A stretch of DNA of 64,000 nucleotides, from contig NZ_AP018725.1 in NCBI RefSeq assembly GCF_003967195.1, positions 3,034,001 through 3,098,000 on the forward strand, given 5' to 3'. The notes beneath the pieces were generated by a model. It saw only the letters and a list, made by a program, of their open reading frames with translations. It had not been told where the DNA came from and did no database searches. The position numbers and the translations under genes are program-made. Source of the stretch: Sulfuriflexus mobilis (GTDB lineage Bacteria; Pseudomonadota; Gammaproteobacteria; AKS1). Shown here piece by piece: positions 5,851 to 24,584 of the stretch; the first letter of the stretch is position 1, and the number at the start of each line of letters is the position of its first letter.

Positions 5851-6813
5851 TTATGCACTACCTCTCTCATTTGTATTATTTACTGCCGTATTTCGGCGTA
5901 ACCAGGCTGAGGCACCCGCCGCAGTGAGGATGCACCAAACGGCAAACAGTGCACCCGGCAGGGCGGTGATGGGTGAAAAATGTGCAAGCGCCAGCGCCAC
6001 CCCCAGACCGGCATTTTGCATGCCTATTTCAATCGCCAGGGTCAGCTGATGCCGGGCATCAAAACCATACCACCTCGCCAGTAACCAACCCACAAGATAA
6101 CCAAGGGCGTTGACGAGGATAACTAGTAGAATTACTAGTATGCCGACCTCGGCGATGCGGGCCTGGTTCTTGGCCACGGCAAAGCTGCAGATGATCACAA
6201 TCGCGATGGCCGCCGCGGCCGGGGCAATCTGGCCGGCCTGCTGCAGGGTGCCACCCAGAAAACGCCTCACCAGCATGCCCAGCAACAGTGGCAACAGCAC
6301 GGTCAGTAATATGGTCTTCATCAGCGGCCAGAATTCAATCGGCAGGAAGGCCCCGCCCAGCCATTGCACCAGTGCCGGGGTCAGCAGCGGCGAGAGGATG
6401 GTGGCAACGGTGGTCAGGGCGATGGAAAAGGCCACCGCGCCACCGGCCAGGTAGACAATGACATTGCTCGCCATTGCACCGGGGGCACAGCCGACAATAA
6501 CAAAGCCGAGTGCCAGTTCCGGTGGCAGGTTACCCAACCAGGCGGCGGCGAAGCCCAGCAACGGCATGACCGTATACTGGGTCAGCACGCCGAGGCCAAT
6601 CTGCCCGGGGTGGCGCAAGGTTTCTTTCAGCTCGGTAGGCTGGAGGACAATGCCGAGTGCAAACATGGTGATGGCAAACAGGGCCAGAAAGACCTTGATG
6701 CCGAGGATCGAGCCATCAAAAATCAGAAAGGCCGCGGGTTGGAAATAGGCCCAGATGGCAGCTATCAGGGTCAGCGGCGCGAGGTTATTGGTGATCAATC
6801 TGGGAATGCCCAT
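5851..6813 (-). CDS. Bile acid:sodium symporter (BASS/SBF) family carrier
   Basis: This reads MGIPRLITNNLAPLTLIAAI... for 320 residues with about nine hydrophobic segments. It contains the family signature around VIVGCAPGAMASNVIVYLAGG and, later, EIGMQNAGLGVALAL, which form the crossover sodium and substrate sites in SBF proteins. A GTG start at 6885 would add 24 polar residues with no membrane function, so ATG 6813 is preferred. Relatives transport bile acids, pantothenate or other organic anions with sodium; the bacterial substrate cannot be named from sequence. The gene is monocistronic, with the next gene in divergent orientation. Confidence 0.88.
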   Translation of the reverse strand: MGIPRLITNNLAPLTLIAAIWAYFQPAAFLIFDGSILGIKVFLALFAITMFALGIVLQPTELKETLRHPGQIGLGVLTQYTVMPLLGFAAAWLGNLPPELALGFVIVGCAPGAMASNVIVYLAGGAVAFSIALTTVATILSPLLTPALVQWLGGAFLPIEFWPLMKTILLTVLLPLLLGMLVRRFLGGTLQQAGQIAPAAAAIAIVIICSFAVAKNQARIAEVGILVILLVILVNALGYLVGWLLARWYGFDARHQLTLAIEIGMQNAGLGVALALAHFSPITALPGALFAVWCILTAAGASAWLRRNTAVNNTNERGSA

Positions 6814-6951
6814 ATTCAATAAGTCTTTATGATCATTAGTCTTTATTCTTTTTGTGATGGCCGTCGCAAGGCAATTGCCAAGCACTGCCCGGAATTTTTC
6901 CGCTGAAAACCGATAATAGCACCGTCTTTACCGCATTACGGAGCCACGACC

Positions 6952-7110
6952 ATGCTGAATAAAATCATTTTGTTTGCCGCCCTGCTGATCCTTGGCCAGC
7001 AGGCACTGACCTGGCTGATGCAGTTCGACACCAACCTGCTGCGCGAGGTCGCCACCTCGATCCTGATCGCCCTGTTCCTGCAACCCGTCATCATGCACCA
7101 ATTCCGCTAA
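6952..7110 (+). CDS. 52-residue membrane peptide
   Basis: A short ORF begins MLNKIILFAALLILGQQALT and ends PVIMHQFR. A purine-rich ribosome binding site (ACGGAG, 6939-6944) lies 7 bases before the ATG. Two hydrophobic stretches (residues 5-15 and 34-48) flank a polar middle (QFDTNLLRE), suggesting a one- or two-pass inner-membrane peptide. Codon use and GC content match the neighbouring core genes. It lies between the SBF carrier and hemB, 66 bases ahead of hemB in the same direction, so it may share a transcript with hemB. I recognise no family. Confidence 0.6.
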   Translation: MLNKIILFAALLILGQQALTWLMQFDTNLLREVATSILIALFLQPVIMHQFR

Positions 7111-7142
7111 GTGGAGTTTGATTAACCGCCCGTCTCGGGTAC

Positions 7143-8193
<1,051 letters not shown>

Positions 8194-12236: not shown

Positions 12237-13586
12237 CTAGCGCATGGTCACCAGTTCTTCGGCGCTGCTTGGGTGGATGGCGACCGTATCATCGAGGTCT
12301 TTCTTGGTCGCGCCCATGCGCAGCGCCACGGCAAAACCCTGCAGCATTTCATCGGCACCAAGGCCGATAATGTGGATGCCGACGACCTTTTCCTGCGCGC
12401 CGACACAAACCAGCTTCATTGCCGTCTGAGTCTTGTGCTCGGTAAGGGCGTGATACATCGGCGTAAAGCGCGAGCTATAGACCTTCACCGCATCGCCATG
12501 CAATGCCCGCGCCTCGTCTTCACTCAGGCCAACAGTACCGATCGGCGGGTGACTGAAGACTACGGTAGGGATATTTGCATAATCCAGTTTGCGCTCGGTC
12601 TTGTTATCAAACAGACGGTCGGCCAGGCGACGCGCGGCACCGATCGCCACCGGCGTCAGGGCCGCACGACCGGTAACATCACCCACGGCATAGACACCGG
12701 CCACATTGGTATTCTGAAAGTCATCCGTAGGGATGTAACCGGCCTTGTCGACCTCGACACCGGTGGCGGGCAGATTCAGTGCCGCCGTATTCGGTTCACG
12801 ACCGATCGCCCACAACAGGCTGTCGAAACCGCTCAGGCTGTGGCCACCGCTGCATTGCAACGTCAGGCTGCCATCGGCGGCCTTTTCAACCTGCTCGATC
12901 TCCATGCTCGACATAATATTGATACCGGCACTGAGCATCTCTTCCATAAGTACCTCACGCAGCATGGCATCGAAGTTACCCAGCACATGCTGGCGGCGGA
13001 TGATTAAGGTCACTTCAGTACCCAGGGCGCGCATGAGGCCGGCGATCTCAACGGCGATGTAACCGGAACCAACCACGGCCATACGCCGCGGCTGTTCCTT
13101 GAGGGCAAAAAATCCGTCCGAGTCGATGCCCAGTTCTGCACCCGGGGTCGCGGGCACAACCGGCTGCGTTCCCGGCGCGATCACAATGTGTTCAGCCGTG
13201 TACTGCTCGCCGTTAACCTCAACCGTGTGGGCATCAATAAAGGTTGCGGTACCGACGATCTCATCAATATTCGAGTCGGCCAGGTAGGTGTGATACCAGT
13301 CATTGATACCCTGAATGTAACCCTGGCGACCCTTGACCAGGGTGTCCCAGTCCAGCGCCCCCGTCTTGGCGTCAAAACCATAACCCTTTGCGTCTTCCAC
13401 GGCATGGGCGAGCATGCCCGCATACCACATGACCTTTTTCGGCACGCAGCCGACATTCACGCAGGTGCCACCCATCGGGCCGCTTTCGATCACCGCGCAC
13501 TTGGCGCCATACTTCGCGGCCCGCTCGGCGGCCGACAAACCACCGGAACCGCCGCCGATGGCAATAAGATCATAGTGTTTGCTCAT
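12237..13586 (-). CDS. gor: Glutathione-disulfide reductase
   Basis: This 449-residue flavoprotein disulfide reductase reduces GSSG with NADPH. It has the FAD motif [17 protein letters not shown] at the N-terminus, the redox disulfide in [16 protein letters not shown], an NADPH-binding [11 protein letters not shown] followed by the arginine pair of LIIRRQHVL that favours NADPH, the second FAD motif VYAVGDVTG, and the C-terminal [12 protein letters not shown] with the catalytic histidine. Length and motifs fit glutathione rather than lipoamide or mercury reductases. It is co-directional with the gamma-carbonic anhydrase gene, and its promoter region faces the FNR-box promoter at 13688. Confidence 0.94.
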
Positions 13587-13687
13587 GTTGTACCTGTTTA
13601 CTTACTTAAAGACGAAAAGGGATTCTAACAAGCTGGCTAATATATTGTTATATCAGAATATAATAACCTTGTAGATCGCGCGTGAAT

Positions 13688-13729
13688 TTGATCGAGATCA
13701 ATTTTCTCCGGCCCCGGTGTGGTTAGCAT
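13688..13729 (+). promoter_or_regulatory. FNR/ANR box and class II promoter
   Basis: TTGAT-CGAG-ATCAA at 13688-13701 is a perfect match to the FNR consensus TTGAT-N4-ATCAA. A -10-like TAGCAT lies at 13724-13729. A transcript starting near 13736 would place the box centre at about -41.5, the classic position for FNR activation. The only gene downstream on this strand is the 36-residue peptide at 13774, which should therefore be induced at low oxygen. Confidence 0.75.
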
Positions 13730-13773
13730 TAGCCCCCATGTTCCACCCACAGAAGAAAACAGGAGAGACCGAT

Positions 13774-13884
13774 ATGATGATGCAGGCAGGCGATTCCGAC
13801 GCACTCGGCAATGTGGCCAAGGCCGTCGCCATACTGGCGGCCATTACCTTCGTCCTGATCTGGCTGGCCAACGCGATAGGCTAG
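13774..13884 (+). CDS. 36-residue single-pass membrane peptide under FNR control
   Basis: A micro-ORF starts MMMQAGDSDALGNVAKAVAI and has a strong ribosome binding site, AGGAGAG (13761-13767), seven bases before the first ATG. After a short polar segment, residues 17-36 form one hydrophobic helix (ending LIWLANAIG). The FNR promoter about 40 bases upstream and the good ribosome binding site argue that it is real. I recognise no family; it does not resemble CydX or CcoQ closely. A role as a small subunit or regulator of a respiratory complex is possible, but this is inference from the promoter alone. Confidence 0.65.
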   Translation: MMMQAGDSDALGNVAKAVAILAAITFVLIWLANAIG

Positions 13885-13936
13885 AAGACCCACATACGCC
13901 CGCAACGGGCCCGACCCCATCCGGCCAGCGCCGTTG

Positions 13937-14935
13937 TCAGTTCCATACCAGCGGCGGCTCGTCGAGCAGGGCAAACTGCTCACGCAGGGCGAGGATCTGT
14001 TGCTCCCAGTACTGCTGGCTATTGAACCAGGGGAAATTCCTCGGGAAGGCCGGGTCTTCCCAGCGCCGACCTAGCCAGGCCGAGTAAAACAGCATGCGCA
14101 GGGTGCGCAGTGCCTCGACGAGGTGCAGTTCGCGAGGGTTGAAGTCGCAAAACTCGGTATAACCCTCGAGCAGGTCGCCGATCTGCATCGTCATATCGGC
14201 ACGCGAGCCGTTCAGCAACATCCACAGGTCCTGGATCGCCGGGCCCGTGCGGCAATCATCCAGGTCGACAAAGTGTGGCCCCGTGTCCGTCCACAAGACA
14301 TTACTCGGATGACAATCGCCATGCAGGCGGATCTGTGCCACCTCACCTGCCCGCGCAAAACAGGCCTCGACCACCGGCAGGATATCCTCGACCAGACTGC
14401 GGTAGGGCAGGCTCAGCTCCGACGGCAGCAGGCCCTTTTCGAGCAAAAATTGATACGACTCACGTCCATAGCTGTCGATCGTGATCTGCGGACGGTGGGC
14501 GAAGGGACGTAAACGCCCGACGGCATGGATGCGGCCGATAAAACGCCCGAGTATCTCGTAGTCCTCACCACCACTGAGCTCCGGCATACGCCCACCCTGG
14601 CAGGGGAAGACGGTAAAACGGTGGCCACCATGGTGAAAGAGGGTCTCGCCCTTCGCATTTCTGAGCGGGGCGACCACCGGGATATCGGTCTCGGCCAGCT
14701 CGAGGGCGAAGGCGTGTTCCTCGAGGATGGCCTCATCACTCCAGCGCCCCGGGCGATAGAACTTCACCACCACCGGTGCCGACTCCTCAACACCCAGGCG
14801 ATAAACACGGTTTTCGTAGCTGTTCAGGGCCAGCATGCTGCCGTCCGGCCACAGGCCAAAGGCCTCCAGCGCGTCGAGGATGGTATCCGGGTCGAGGTCG
14901 TAAAAACCCTGTTGTGCTGTATGGTTACTATCCAA
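13937..14935 (-). CDS. srkA: Stress response kinase A (YihE/RdoA family Ser/Thr kinase)
   Basis: This 332-residue aminoglycoside-phosphotransferase-fold kinase phosphorylates proteins on serine or threonine and protects E. coli cells under envelope stress. Visible kinase features are the nucleotide-binding lysine in APVVVKFYRPGRW, the helix DEAILEEHAFALELAE, the catalytic loop RLHGDCHPSNVLW and the metal-binding FVDLDDCRTGPAIQDLW. The length fits E. coli SrkA (328). In enterobacteria srkA is followed by dsbA; no dsbA is present here and the gene stands alone, divergent from prlC. Confidence 0.93.
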   Translation of the reverse strand: MDSNHTAQQGFYDLDPDTILDALEAFGLWPDGSMLALNSYENRVYRLGVEESAPVVVKFYRPGRWSDEAILEEHAFALELAETDIPVVAPLRNAKGETLFHHGGHRFTVFPCQGGRMPELSGGEDYEILGRFIGRIHAVGRLRPFAHRPQITIDSYGRESYQFLLEKGLLPSELSLPYRSLVEDILPVVEACFARAGEVAQIRLHGDCHPSNVLWTDTGPHFVDLDDCRTGPAIQDLWMLLNGSRADMTMQIGDLLEGYTEFCDFNPRELHLVEALRTLRMLFYSAWLGRRWEDPAFPRNFPWFNSQQYWEQQILALREQFALLDEPPLVWN

Positions 14936-20901: not shown

Positions 20902-20987
20902 GTTCATTATAAAAGGATACTAACTCCTTTTATTTCTAGTCCGTTTTTTTGCAGCCTTTTTCCGATGGATTAAAAGCAATAATGGTA

Positions 20988-21077
20988 GCTAACATATTGT
21001 ATTTTTTGAATATAACCTCGCAATAGACGAGAAACACAAATGTAATAGACTGCATGCGGTCTAAATCACTGTTAGCG
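20988..21077 (+). other. attC-like inverted repeat at the left edge of the accessory block
   Basis: GCTAACA (20988-20994) pairs with TGTTAGC about 80 bases on, with an inner stem TAGAC/GTCTA. The outer boxes resemble the R''/R' boxes of integron attC sites, but no clear L boxes are present. It separates the parA-like gene from the first small ORF of the block, whose start follows within about 35 bases. Confidence 0.3.
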
Positions 21078-21108
21078 TCACAATAAGAAATATAGGTATT
21101 CATACACA

Positions 21109-21423
21109 ATGGATTTTCTTACGTTTAAAAGTTTTATTAGCACTGAGGCTCTAATAATATTTTATTACCTTGGCGCAATTATAATGCCTGTTGGGATATG
21201 GCTCTTACTTACCTGGCTTCTGCGCAAATATAAATTATTTAATACTGCATATGAAAGCGGGAAGGAAATAATATGGAAATCATTGAATAGAAAACAACAA
21301 ACTAAACTCGTAGCATTTTTCGTAACTTCATTTATGTTTATGGAGTTATTTTGGCGAATGTTTTTTGAATTTCTAATTGCCTACATGCAAATGCGGGATG
21401 CGTTATTACAAACTCAACTATGA
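21109..21423 (+). CDS. Small membrane protein, possibly DUF4282-like
   Basis: This 104-residue AT-rich ORF begins MDFLTFKSFISTEALIIFYY. It has two hydrophobic segments (about 14-38 and 66-90), and the ending RMFFEFLIAYMQMRDAL resembles the C-terminus of DUF4282 proteins, though I would not press the assignment. The stop at 21423 is followed 17 bases later by the best attC-like site in the window, the position expected for a cassette-borne gene. No strong ribosome binding site precedes the ATG. The GC content is clearly below that of core genes. Confidence 0.65.
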   Translation: MDFLTFKSFISTEALIIFYYLGAIIMPVGIWLLLTWLLRKYKLFNTAYESGKEIIWKSLNRKQQTKLVAFFVTSFMFMELFWRMFFEFLIAYMQMRDALLQTQL

Positions 21424-21440
21424 ATAAATCAAAGAAATAC

Positions 21441-21503
21441 GCTAATAAATCGTTCAATCAGACCGGCAAAAGACGCGTCTTCTGGGTAATTCAAGCGTTA
21501 GAG
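21441..21503 (+). other. attC-like site (best example)
   Basis: A 63-bp element starts GCTAATAAATCGTTCAATCA and ends ATTCAAGCGTTAGAG. The ends pair (CTAAT/GTTAG), and ACC/GGGT plus the palindrome AAGACGCGTCTT (21469-21480) form the inner stem. The half-sites closely resemble mobile-integron 59-base elements (…TCGTTCAAG… / …TCAAGCGTTAGA…). It lies 17 bases after one small ORF and 10 bases before the next, exactly like a cassette junction. Confidence 0.65.
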
Positions 21504-21513
21504 AAAATAAAAT

Positions 21514-21870
21514 ATGACAAGAGAATTTGCTAATCAGTTTGCATTAGAGTGGATTCAGGCCTGGAACAGTAAAGACATAAATACAATCATGTCACATTAT
21601 GCAGAAGATTTTGAAATGACATCTCCCATTATAATGAGTCTTGTCAATGAGGCAAGTGGCACTATAAAAGGCAAAGACGCTATAACAAAATATTGGTCCA
21701 AAGCCATTAAAACAAATCCTAATTTACACTTCACATTAGTAAATGTATTTATCGGTGTTACTAGTATACTTATTAATTACAAAGGTCATAGAGGTCTATC
21801 TTCTGAGGTTTTACATTTCAACGCAAACAATAAAGTTAACCGGGCATATGCGCACTATATTCAGGAATAA
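21514..21870 (+). CDS. NTF2-fold (SnoaL-like) protein
   Basis: This 118-residue protein shows the SnoaL/NTF2-like pattern: an N-terminal helix ALEWIQAWNSKDINTIMSHY, then YAEDFEMTSP, an insertion, GTIKGKDAITKYWSKAI and C-terminal beta strands ending KVNRAYAHYIQE. These cone-shaped proteins bind small hydrophobic ligands or act as isomerases and cyclases; the aspartate in the YAEDF element is often functional. The start lies 10 bases after the attC-like site, as in integron cassettes, where NTF2-fold genes are common. It is AT-rich and its substrate is unknown. Confidence 0.8.
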   Translation: MTREFANQFALEWIQAWNSKDINTIMSHYAEDFEMTSPIIMSLVNEASGTIKGKDAITKYWSKAIKTNPNLHFTLVNVFIGVTSILINYKGHRGLSSEVLHFNANNKVNRAYAHYIQE

Positions 21871-21875
21871 TTACT

Positions 21876-21963
21876 TTAATAAGGCAATAAACATAGGCCA
21901 CCTAGAGCCAGGGCCTATAATATAGGCTTCCACCCTAGACAGATGTTTATCGCAACATTATAC
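21876..21963 (+). other. Degenerate attC-like inverted repeat
   Basis: TTAATAAGGCAATAAACAT (from 21876) faces ATGTTTAT (21943-21950) and ATTATAC (21957-21963). ATAAACAT/ATGTTTAT is a perfect 8-bp pair and the outer TAAT/ATTA add four more. Inner GCCTAT/ATAGGC pairs lie between. The terminal box has ATT where active attC sites need GTT, so recombination activity is probably lost. Confidence 0.35.
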
Positions 21964-21978
21964 GCATAAGAGAACATC

Positions 21979-22656
21979 ATGGAATTATCCAATGTAATCC
22001 CCTGGGGGAGGTCATTTAAAGAATACAGGGAAATGTTTTCGTTATCTGACGATGATCTTGAAAAAAAACTACTAGGTTGTAGTGATGGGCCAGCTTGCTT
22101 TAATGCAGAGCTGACAAAAATTGGCGGCAGCATCGTATCCGTTGATCCAGTATATCAATTCAACGCTGAGCAAATTCGATCAAGAATTGATGAGGTTTAC
22201 CCTCAAGTAATGGAGCAAATGTCAAAAAATAAAGGTAACTATGTATGGAAAACTATCAGTAGTATTGAGGATTTGGGGCAAGTACGAATGAAGGCCATGG
22301 AAAAATTCCTGAGTGACTATGAAATAGGAAGGGAATCAGGAAGATATATTAATGCATCACTGCCAGTATTGCCGTTTGAAAGTGACGCATTTGATTTGGC
22401 CTTGTGTTCGCACTACTTATTTCTTTATAGTGAGCATATAAATCAAGAGCAACATATTTCCGCTATGAAAGAATTATGTCGTGTAGCCAACGAGGTTCGA
22501 GTTTATCCATTGTTATCACTTGATGGAAAAAAATCAAAGCATCTCCAGCCAGTGATCTCTGCTCTCAGGAAAAACGGTATTGATGTTTCGTTAAGGTCCG
22601 TGAAATATCTATTTCAAAAAGGCGCTACTGAAATGTTGGTGGCGAAATGCGTATAA
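21979..22656 (+). CDS. Class I SAM-dependent methyltransferase-like protein
   Basis: This 225-residue protein has a degenerate class I methyltransferase core. LLGCSDGPACFNAEL replaces the usual glycine-rich motif I, and GSIVSVDPVYQF gives the acidic residue at the end of strand 2. LPVLPFESDAFDLALCSHYL corresponds to motifs II-III with the familiar LPF..DAFDLAL pattern. It may have lost or shifted specificity. The stop codon overlaps the first box of an attC-like site (TATAAC, 22652-22657), a feature of cassette ORFs. It is AT-rich and not related to the TPMT gene nearby. Confidence 0.75.
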   Translation: MELSNVIPWGRSFKEYREMFSLSDDDLEKKLLGCSDGPACFNAELTKIGGSIVSVDPVYQFNAEQIRSRIDEVYPQVMEQMSKNKGNYVWKTISSIEDLGQVRMKAMEKFLSDYEIGRESGRYINASLPVLPFESDAFDLALCSHYLFLYSEHINQEQHISAMKELCRVANEVRVYPLLSLDGKKSKHLQPVISALRKNGIDVSLRSVKYLFQKGATEMLVAKCV

Positions 22657-22778
22657 CAAGGCAAATACACTCTAATCATAAATAAACTACGCGCCTTCGT
22701 CGCCCCACTTTTACTCGCCAGAGACTTGCAACATTAACCCTTTTGCGCACTTTGCACGCAAAAGGGTTAACGTTATAG
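22652..22778 (+). other. Possible long attC-like site overlapping the methyltransferase stop
   Basis: TATAACAAGGCAAATACAC (from 22652) and GTTATAG (22772-22778) are complementary over six bases and are 127 bp apart, a length seen in large attC sites. The first box contains the stop codon of the preceding ORF. The TATAACAAGGC string also begins the site after the DUF1272 gene. Against it, a strong 14-bp hairpin at 22734-22770 occupies the place where the L' box should be. Confidence 0.35.
22734..22770. repeat. Perfect 14-bp inverted repeat
   Basis: TTAACCCTTTTGCG (22734-22747) and CGCAAAAGGGTTAA (22757-22770) are exact complements around the 9-base loop CACTTTGCA. No T-tract follows on either strand, so it is not a clean intrinsic terminator. 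It could be an operator, a transcript-end hairpin for the methyltransferase gene, or part of the attC-like site it lies in. Confidence 0.7.
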
Positions 22779-23231
22779 TTGAGTATTACTCAGACGTCAT
22801 GTTGCCTTGCGCGCATAGTGCGAGTCCACAGATAGGCGCTATGCAGACAACATTGATAATCTCATATGGGCACAGTAGTTAGCGATTGTGTCATATCACT
22901 ATTAATTAATTTATCTTAACTTAATTATTCGTTGCTTCTTGTCCATCGCTATTTTGGTTAAAGCTACTGGTTAACCTACGGTGCTTGTAGGCACTTTGGT
23001 GCTGGCGCGATCTACGAAGAGCAAGCAAATTATGAATGAAATTCTCACATCCGGTTATCGGCTTGCAGAATTTTGTATTGGCAGGACTGAGAAATATTAG
23101 GATTATTAGGCGCAGATGAACAATAAAGTATAACCATGGTATTCACCTGTAATTCAAGGAGTCAGTAACAAACACGAATCATTAGTATTTTTATTTATTA
23201 TTTGTTTGTGTTCTGATTTCAGTTTTGTGAA
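22779..23231. other. Gene-free AT-rich stretch
   Basis: No credible ORF was found in these 450 bases. They hold two further short inverted repeats: TGAGT-ATT-ACTCA at about 22781-22793, and GCATAGTGC/GCGCTATGC at 22813-22821 and 22836-22844, the latter enclosed by ATGTTG/CAACAT. The stretch lies between the rightward methyltransferase and the leftward TPMT gene, and may be the remains of a decayed cassette. Confidence 0.5.
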
Positions 23232-23834
23232 TTATTTCTTTTCAAGATTAATAAATAGTTCAATACCCTCCCTGGGCTCAATAGAGTTGTAAGATTCCTC
23301 GAAGACCCGGATGTTGAAATACGGCCTAAAATACGTTTCGTATTCTTCTTTTGTGCCCCCATAAGGTGGGCCACTACCGAGTTCACAATTAAATAATACC
23401 CCGACCAATTTGCCATTGGTCGCCAGGAGTTCATGGGTTTTTTGCGCATAATCAGGCCGCAGACGGGGCTCGATGGCACTAAAAAAGGTTTGCTCTAAAA
23501 TAAGATCATACTGTCCTGCGTGGGCAAAAAAATCTCCATGAATAAGTTGTTGCGTCGGAAAATCCGGCATGCGCCTCAGTAAATTTTCAAAGGGCTTTTG
23601 CGTAAGCTCCATCGCATGGACGTTAGCAAAGCCCTGTTTGTACAAATATTCCACCTCATAGGCATTTCCGCATCCAGGTATCAGGATTTTCAAATCCTTG
23701 TTTTGCAGCTGGTCAATGTACGCCTTTAGGGGCGTGGAAATATCGCCAATATCCCAGCCTGTTTCTCCGGCATTATAGCGTTCTTCCCAATATTGCTGGT
23801 TGTGCTCTGAGTCTGTATTTATCATAGCGGCCAT
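23232..23834 (-). CDS. Thiopurine S-methyltransferase (TPMT) family protein
   Basis: This 200-residue class I SAM methyltransferase of the TPMT family (PF05724) has the N-terminal YWEERYNAGETGWDIG, motif I ILIPGCGNAYEVEYLYKQGF, the acidic strand-2 end VHAMELTQ, and YDLILEQTFFSAIEPRLRP. Bacterial relatives methylate thiopurines, selenium or tellurium compounds, or small thiols. The start may be ATG 23834 or ATG 23825 (MINTD); neither has a strong ribosome binding site. It runs opposite to the other genes in the AT-rich block. Confidence 0.87.
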   Translation of the reverse strand: MAAMINTDSEHNQQYWEERYNAGETGWDIGDISTPLKAYIDQLQNKDLKILIPGCGNAYEVEYLYKQGFANVHAMELTQKPFENLLRRMPDFPTQQLIHGDFFAHAGQYDLILEQTFFSAIEPRLRPDYAQKTHELLATNGKLVGVLFNCELGSGPPYGGTKEEYETYFRPYFNIRVFEESYNSIEPREGIELFINLEKK

Positions 23835-23903
23835 TTATTTATGATGTTCTGCTTATATTTCAAGGTATGCTCATGCATAGTATATAGAGACCCTATGTAA
23901 TAT

Positions 23904-23960
23904 CCTAAGCGATCAATACTTTTATTTACACTATAATATTTATCTTCTCAAGCGTTAACG
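23904..23960 (+). other. Partial attC-like site
   Basis: CCTAAGCGATCAATAC (from 23904) and CTTCTCAAGCGTTAACG (to 23960) resemble the two half-sites of a 59-base element. The string CTCAAGCGTTA matches the 3' half of classical mobile-integron sites as I remember them. The R boxes pair imperfectly (CTAAG against GTTAA). The next ORF starts 26 bases downstream, consistent with a cassette junction. Confidence 0.4.
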
Positions 23961-23985
23961 CCCGCTAGAATTCAAAGGAAAGATT

Positions 23986-24519
23986 ATGGGTTATTTTGAT
24001 AAAATTGCTGCGACTGCATTTAAAGAAGGAAAAAATGGTGAAACCCTTTACTTCCCGAATGGGATATTGGGTAAAGGCCGTTTAGTTGAAGACCCTGTCC
24101 GAAAAGAAAAGCTGTTTAAATTCCATAAGCGCTTAAATAAGTATTTCTTACCCTTGTGTATCCTATACGGGTTGCTGTTAGGTTTGAGCGGCGGAGTTTC
24201 ATTAAACGGTTTTATGCCTATTATAATAATCGGCCTGGTGGTAATAATGAGACAGCAGATTCTCATTAGAGGACTACCTGTTAAAAATGAGAAGCTGTCC
24301 GCAAAAGAGGCCATGACCTCGACATCTAAAGCGCTTCACCCTGCATGGGTACCCGTTATGTTTGTAGCCGGGATAATAGGAATACTTCTTTCCCTGTCTA
24401 TTCCGTTCTTTTTCGAAAAATCATTCAATGAGCTGCTTGGCTTAGTCGTTATTACCCTGACGCTTGGTATCGTTTCACTTGGAATCAGCTTGTATTTATA
24501 TAAAATACAAAAAATTTAA
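23986..24519 (+). CDS. Four-helix membrane protein of unknown function
   Basis: This 177-residue AT-rich ORF begins MGYFDKIAATAFKEGKNGET and has ribosome binding site AAGGAAAG. A soluble N-terminus of about 50 residues (YFPNGILGKGRLVEDPVRKE) precedes two paired membrane helices (about 54-86). A polar loop follows, then two more helices (about 116-138 and 148-173). The N-terminal phrase resembles small membrane proteins with a YFPNG...GRLV segment found in many bacteria, but I cannot name a family. It is the last gene of the accessory block and converges on the cydA-like gene. Confidence 0.7.
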   Translation: MGYFDKIAATAFKEGKNGETLYFPNGILGKGRLVEDPVRKEKLFKFHKRLNKYFLPLCILYGLLLGLSGGVSLNGFMPIIIIGLVVIMRQQILIRGLPVKNEKLSAKEAMTSTSKALHPAWVPVMFVAGIIGILLSLSIPFFFEKSFNELLGLVVITLTLGIVSLGISLYLYKIQKI

Positions 24520-24559
24520 TAAAGCCTTCAGTAAACAGGCAATAAAAAGAAGCTAACAT

Positions 24560-24584
24560 ATTATTGAAGCATTACTTCAATAAT
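24560..24584. terminator. Possible bidirectional terminator
   Basis: ATTATTGAAG-CATTA-CTTCAATAAT is a perfect 10-bp stem between the converging ends of the membrane-protein gene (24519) and the cydA-like gene (24604). It is AT-rich and the flanking T-tracts are broken, so termination may be weak. Confidence 0.45.

Follow-up and report, generated by a model that had tools for sequence, protein, structure and literature searches.

A probable cluster of decayed integron cassettes downstream of parA in Sulfuriflexus mobilis, and two disrupted integrase genes elsewhere in the genome

Described cassette clusters and the locus under study

Clusters of attC sites without a neighbouring integrase (CALINs) have been described with IntegronFinder as attC sites lying between small unrelated ORFs, with no intI nearby (PMC9024848). 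In Xanthomonas, dispersed CALINs are found in about half of the genomes (PMC12444791), and the ancestral integron of that group neighbours ilvD (PMC12444791). The integron integrase can also insert cassettes at non-classical attG sites, in the account of Loot et al. 2024 that is cited in PMC12901181, and the loss of a costly IntI through frameshift is a known event (PMC3510236).

We considered that a stretch from 21071 to about 24550, downstream of parA, might belong among these systems. It lies in a window of 64,000 nucleotides (positions 3,034,001 to 3,098,000 of contig NZ_AP018725.1). Our analysis leads us to regard it, with good confidence, as a decayed integron cassette cluster without a local integrase, that is, a CALIN of a known kind. 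It resembles the CALINs reported with IntegronFinder in that attC sites stand between small unrelated ORFs and intI is not nearby, whereas it differs in that one site is clear by model, the rest are degraded and one gene is oppositely oriented. The genome as a whole is reminiscent of Xanthomonas, in which CALINs lie away from intI and intI is often broken and located beside ilvD (PMC12444791); in contrast to that case, a single 3.1-Mb chromosome here has two intI genes together with 13 attC loci lacking an integrase, and both intI genes carry the same insert. The attG insertion cited in PMC12901181 would likewise explain scattered cassettes without an integrase, the junctions at this locus being putative.

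Genes and attC sites of the locus

No other 3.5-kb stretch of the window is as poor in GC as this locus, which has 38% GC where the window as a whole has 53%. The first-pass annotation had described five short, AT-rich, unrelated ORFs here; the AT-richness was upheld (32-44% GC each), with the correction that one of the five, at 23232-23834, is on the minus strand. Four are on the plus strand: ORF A (21109-21423) encodes a DUF4282 membrane protein of 104 aa (PF14110, E 3.8e-11), ORF B (21514-21870) a SnoaL/NTF2-like protein of 118 aa (PF12680, E 8.3e-11), ORF C (21979-22656) a protein of 225 aa whose relatives, including plasmid relatives, are annotated as SAM-dependent methyltransferases, and ORF E (23986-24519) a membrane protein of 177 aa without a known family. 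ORF D, the minus-strand gene, encodes a TPMT-like methyltransferase of 200 aa (PF05724, E 4.2e-27), and it gave the sole match in a defence-system library, a weak methyltransferase match that is probably generic.

To locate attC sites, we used two covariance models, neither of which included a site from the window. Model R1 was built from the attC sites of the genome's two integron arrays and of three relatives, and model R2 is R1 enlarged to 39 sites; in a control search, a complete genome without intI yielded zero matches. Regex and box-pair scans were not selective and were dropped in favour of the covariance models. An RNAalifold consensus gave no pairs, and the structure was supplied by hand instead. 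Nothing in Rfam matched in the window or in the two integrons.

All of the box letters named in the first-pass annotation were found where it had placed them. The genome-wide covariance search that it had proposed gave a single match in the window, a complete attC on the plus strand at 21440-21503 (R'' CGCTAAT, 21440-21446; R' GTTAGAG, 21497-21503), which scored 31.8 bits with R1 (E 1.5e-3) and 34.0 bits with R2 (E 1.4e-4) against the 3.1-Mb genome; this is the site that had been likened to a 59-base element. It is located 16 nt past the stop at 21423 and 10 nt ahead of the ATG at 21514. No plasmid DNA similar to the attC was found.

A second, divergent attC on the plus strand, at 21874-21963, was not reported by the covariance model. 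It consists of R'' CTTTAAT (21874-21880), a 6-nt spacer, L'' ATAAACAT, a central part, L' ATGTTTAT, another 6-nt spacer and R' ATTATAC (21957-21963), and its L stem is perfect over 8 bp, a length reached in 0 of 1000 dinucleotide shuffles, the maximum in 517 other window tiles being 5. The single-strand DNA fold of 21878-21973 has a z of -3.0, a type of measure that discriminates poorly, since known attC sites have z values of -0.6 to -1.3. The locus therefore contains at least two attC sites, the default minimum per cluster for a CALIN in IntegronFinder 2, one recognised by covariance model (21440-21503) and the other by its R/L-box structure (21874-21963); by the covariance model alone, it would be left as a single-attC CALIN.

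The remaining sites are poorer. A degenerate attC on the plus strand at 22651-22778 (GTATAAC 22651-22657, GTTATAG 22772-22778) is weak by model R2 (10.5 bits, E 0.3 in a search of 6.4 kb), and its 3' half holds a perfect 20-bp hairpin (fold z -3.4). The stop codon of ORF C (TAA, 22654-22656) falls within the R'' box of this site, in keeping with the stop-codon overlap reported earlier, and the same overlap is seen in relatives. The inverted repeat formed by GCTAAC at 20988 and GTTAGCG at 21071-21077, on the plus strand, is probably not an attC; as an attC, 20987-21077 does not rise above chance (L stem p = 0.09, fold z -1.4, no model match). Of the inverted repeats previously placed at four junctions, the letters are correct throughout, the first is probably not an attC and 22651-22778 is weak. 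Ahead of the last ORF, a vestigial attC can be read from the letters on the plus strand at 23931-23960 (CTATAAT ... TCAAGC GTTAACG, with the centre missing), its R' GTTAACG (23954-23960) standing 25 nt ahead of the ATG of ORF E at 23986; the partial site that had been noted there does have these letters, but, with no match to the covariance model, it is a vestige at best. The same grade applies to the possible attC remnant on the other side of ORF E, at 24530-24562 on the plus strand, which was read from the letters only (AGTAAACAGGCAATAAA). A 12-mer, AGCTAACATATT, is present in single copy close to either end of the array (20987-20998 and 24551-24562). The earlier description of the sites as old and partly degenerate agrees with this picture of weak or vestigial sites beside one clear attC.

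Where integron cassettes stand in a row, the six bases past the crossover G of an attC are part of the next cassette and should hence mirror the R'' of that cassette. Among 40 neighbouring pairs in arrays defined by the models, the match rate at variable positions is 87.5%, compared with 42% in random pairs. Cassettes A, B and C of the window match at 3/3, 2/3 and 3/3 positions (8/9; p about 0.009), a probability that is optimistic because the boxes of the second site (21874-21963) were picked by eye. Cassette A would start at the R'-like GTTAGCG (21071-21077, plus strand), the probable left edge of the array, which is complementary to its R'', the CGCTAAT at 21440.

Do these genes behave as cassettes elsewhere? 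Across one genome per species from 84,980 species, we found 52 loci related to ORF C. The relative is flanked by attC on both sides in three of them (L088, L108 and L114), and an attC abuts one side in a further eight (L085, L092, L093, L099, L102, L117, L118 and L126); the relatives beside or between attC sites are from Marinobacter, Halomonas and other genera. Because its relatives adjoin attC in these loci, gene C is a recurrent integron cassette. For ORF E, 2 relatives were found in 369 genomes, and the nearer one (48% identical) has an attC-like hairpin ending in GTTAGAT directly ahead of its start codon, a feature found by eye and not a model match. ORF D runs in the opposite direction and is not followed by a good attC. 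In the sampled genomes, no attC adjoins the relatives of ORF A and ORF B. A homologue of ORF A that is 70% identical is located beside parA in the congener G002, and one that is 82% identical is located away from parA in the congener G003, in both cases without attC. Because G002 has this gene next to parA without attC, the cassette status of ORF A is uncertain, and it could be a native, non-cassette gene. Taking together the possession of an attC, the mirror rule and recurrence, cassette behaviour is strong for C and uncertain for A, D and E; about three cassettes in the cluster are supported and two are doubtful.

Origin of the cluster

The first-pass annotation had called for a comparison with close relatives. 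The parA gene is conserved in congeners (82-84%); downstream of it, the gene content of G002 and G003 differs from that of the window and between the two, the contig of G001 ends, and no attC was found downstream of parA in the congeners. Because the congeners have parA with differing downstream genes and no attC, the comparison favours insertion downstream of parA over the loss of a resident integron. The GTTAGCG at 21071 on the left edge fits the G|TT junction, in host DNA lacking an attC half, that attG insertion would give, but the exact junctions of the insertion are unreadable, as no congener offers a clean empty site.

We infer that the likeliest origin is attG-type insertion by an IntI that was then active. 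Gene cassettes, each a gene with its attC, would have been placed downstream of parA while the lineage had a working IntI, their attC hairpins recombining with secondary chromosomal sites of the attG type, as presumably happened at a dozen further sites of this chromosome. After insertion, the attC sites would have degraded and both intI genes would have been frameshifted just ahead of the catalytic tyrosine. Because the genome has no other integron integrase and both intI genes are disrupted, the array would no longer be mobile on its own, unless an integrase arrived from outside.

It is improbable, in our judgement, that a complete integron once stood here and lost intI and attI by deletion, so that just its tail remains. 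Degradation of integrons is a common proposal for the origin of CALINs (PMC9024848), and two arrays bearing intI exist elsewhere in this genome; however, the window contains no intI or intI remnant, and 13 dispersed loci would demand many separate losses. The earlier statement that intI is absent holds for the window (3.03-3.10 Mb), but the genome has two disrupted intI genes, at 0.237 and 2.30 Mb. Another possibility, AT-rich genes of ordinary horizontal origin that are separated by terminator hairpins merely resembling attC, would account for two strong terminator-like hairpins, one in the third spacer and one downstream of ORF E, and for the first repeat, 20987-21077, which is not significant. 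Such genes would not be expected to give a model match with a genome-wide E of 1.4e-4 (21440-21503), an 8-bp L stem with attC-like spacers (21874-21963) or gene C relatives that lie between attC sites, and we give this explanation very little credence. The earlier reading of an attC cluster without a neighbouring integrase is thus borne out by the covariance models, the L-box statistics, the mirror rule and the relatives of gene C, and insertion by a formerly active IntI is the account that we prefer.

Two intI genes with the same insert

The genome holds two integrons with intI (TIGR02249, 457 and 421 bits), which are the only places with strong intI matches. Its phage-integrase-family proteins number only four, the two IntI and two proteins of about 305 aa that are taken to be XerC and XerD. 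With models R1 and R2, 13 attC loci without intI were found in the 3.1-Mb chromosome, the window locus included; the 12 others comprise anything from one site to an array of about seven, the latter at 660-665 kb. The larger arrays are L063 (G000:C1:657800-665000, about seven attC) as well as L060, L062 and L068.

A 50-bp insert, identical between the two copies at 48/50 bases, interrupts both intI genes at the same nucleotide, AT(T/G)^TATACCCATG. The inserts are located near C1:236848-236897 (L005, G000:C1:227000-246999) and C1:2300950-2300999 (L006, G000:C1:2291000-2310999), directly before the catalytic tyrosine codon, where they shift the reading frame; the codons downstream are otherwise preserved in both genes. 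In the congeners G002 and G003, intI is intact and full-length through the tyrosine. The insert is a member of a dispersed repeat family of ~50 bp that is present in other gammaproteobacteria; in this genome, no copies beyond the two in intI were found, and searches of plasmids, phages and viral contigs found none. A group II intron as the cause of the breaks was rejected, with no Rfam match in the two integrons, and translational bypassing of 50 nt was rejected by inspection, because no take-off codon has a matching landing codon in the correct frame.

A single insertion predating the divergence of the two intI genes seems hard to reconcile with such nearly identical inserts. We tentatively raise a doubtful but specific scenario, in which the ~50-bp interspersed repeat (GTCGCTCCCGGCGTCCTGCC...ACTAGTACATCCTGTACGTCG) entered two intI genes of only ~66% identity, each time at the same nucleotide, a site-specific silencing that would have frozen two arrays and about 13 CALINs, including the one in the window. 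The identical insert raises the question of whether integrases are singled out as targets or have come under repeated counter-selection. Taken alone, the locus illustrates integron decay on a modest scale; the surprising part is the twin disruption of intI, which, with the scattered attC loci, deserves more attention than the locus does. Since both of its intI genes are broken, 13 orphan attC loci are present and two congeners offer an intact intI for comparison, the genome is a useful case for studying how cassettes scatter over a chromosome and what follows the death of the integrase.

Two further features of the integrons were observed. The second integron (L006 9048-12098, 2.30 Mb) adjoins ilvD. 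An IS3-family element is present in two copies that are 99.7% identical over 1313 bp (L005 about 13170-14480; L006 about 6035-7346), each located within an attC, one per integron.
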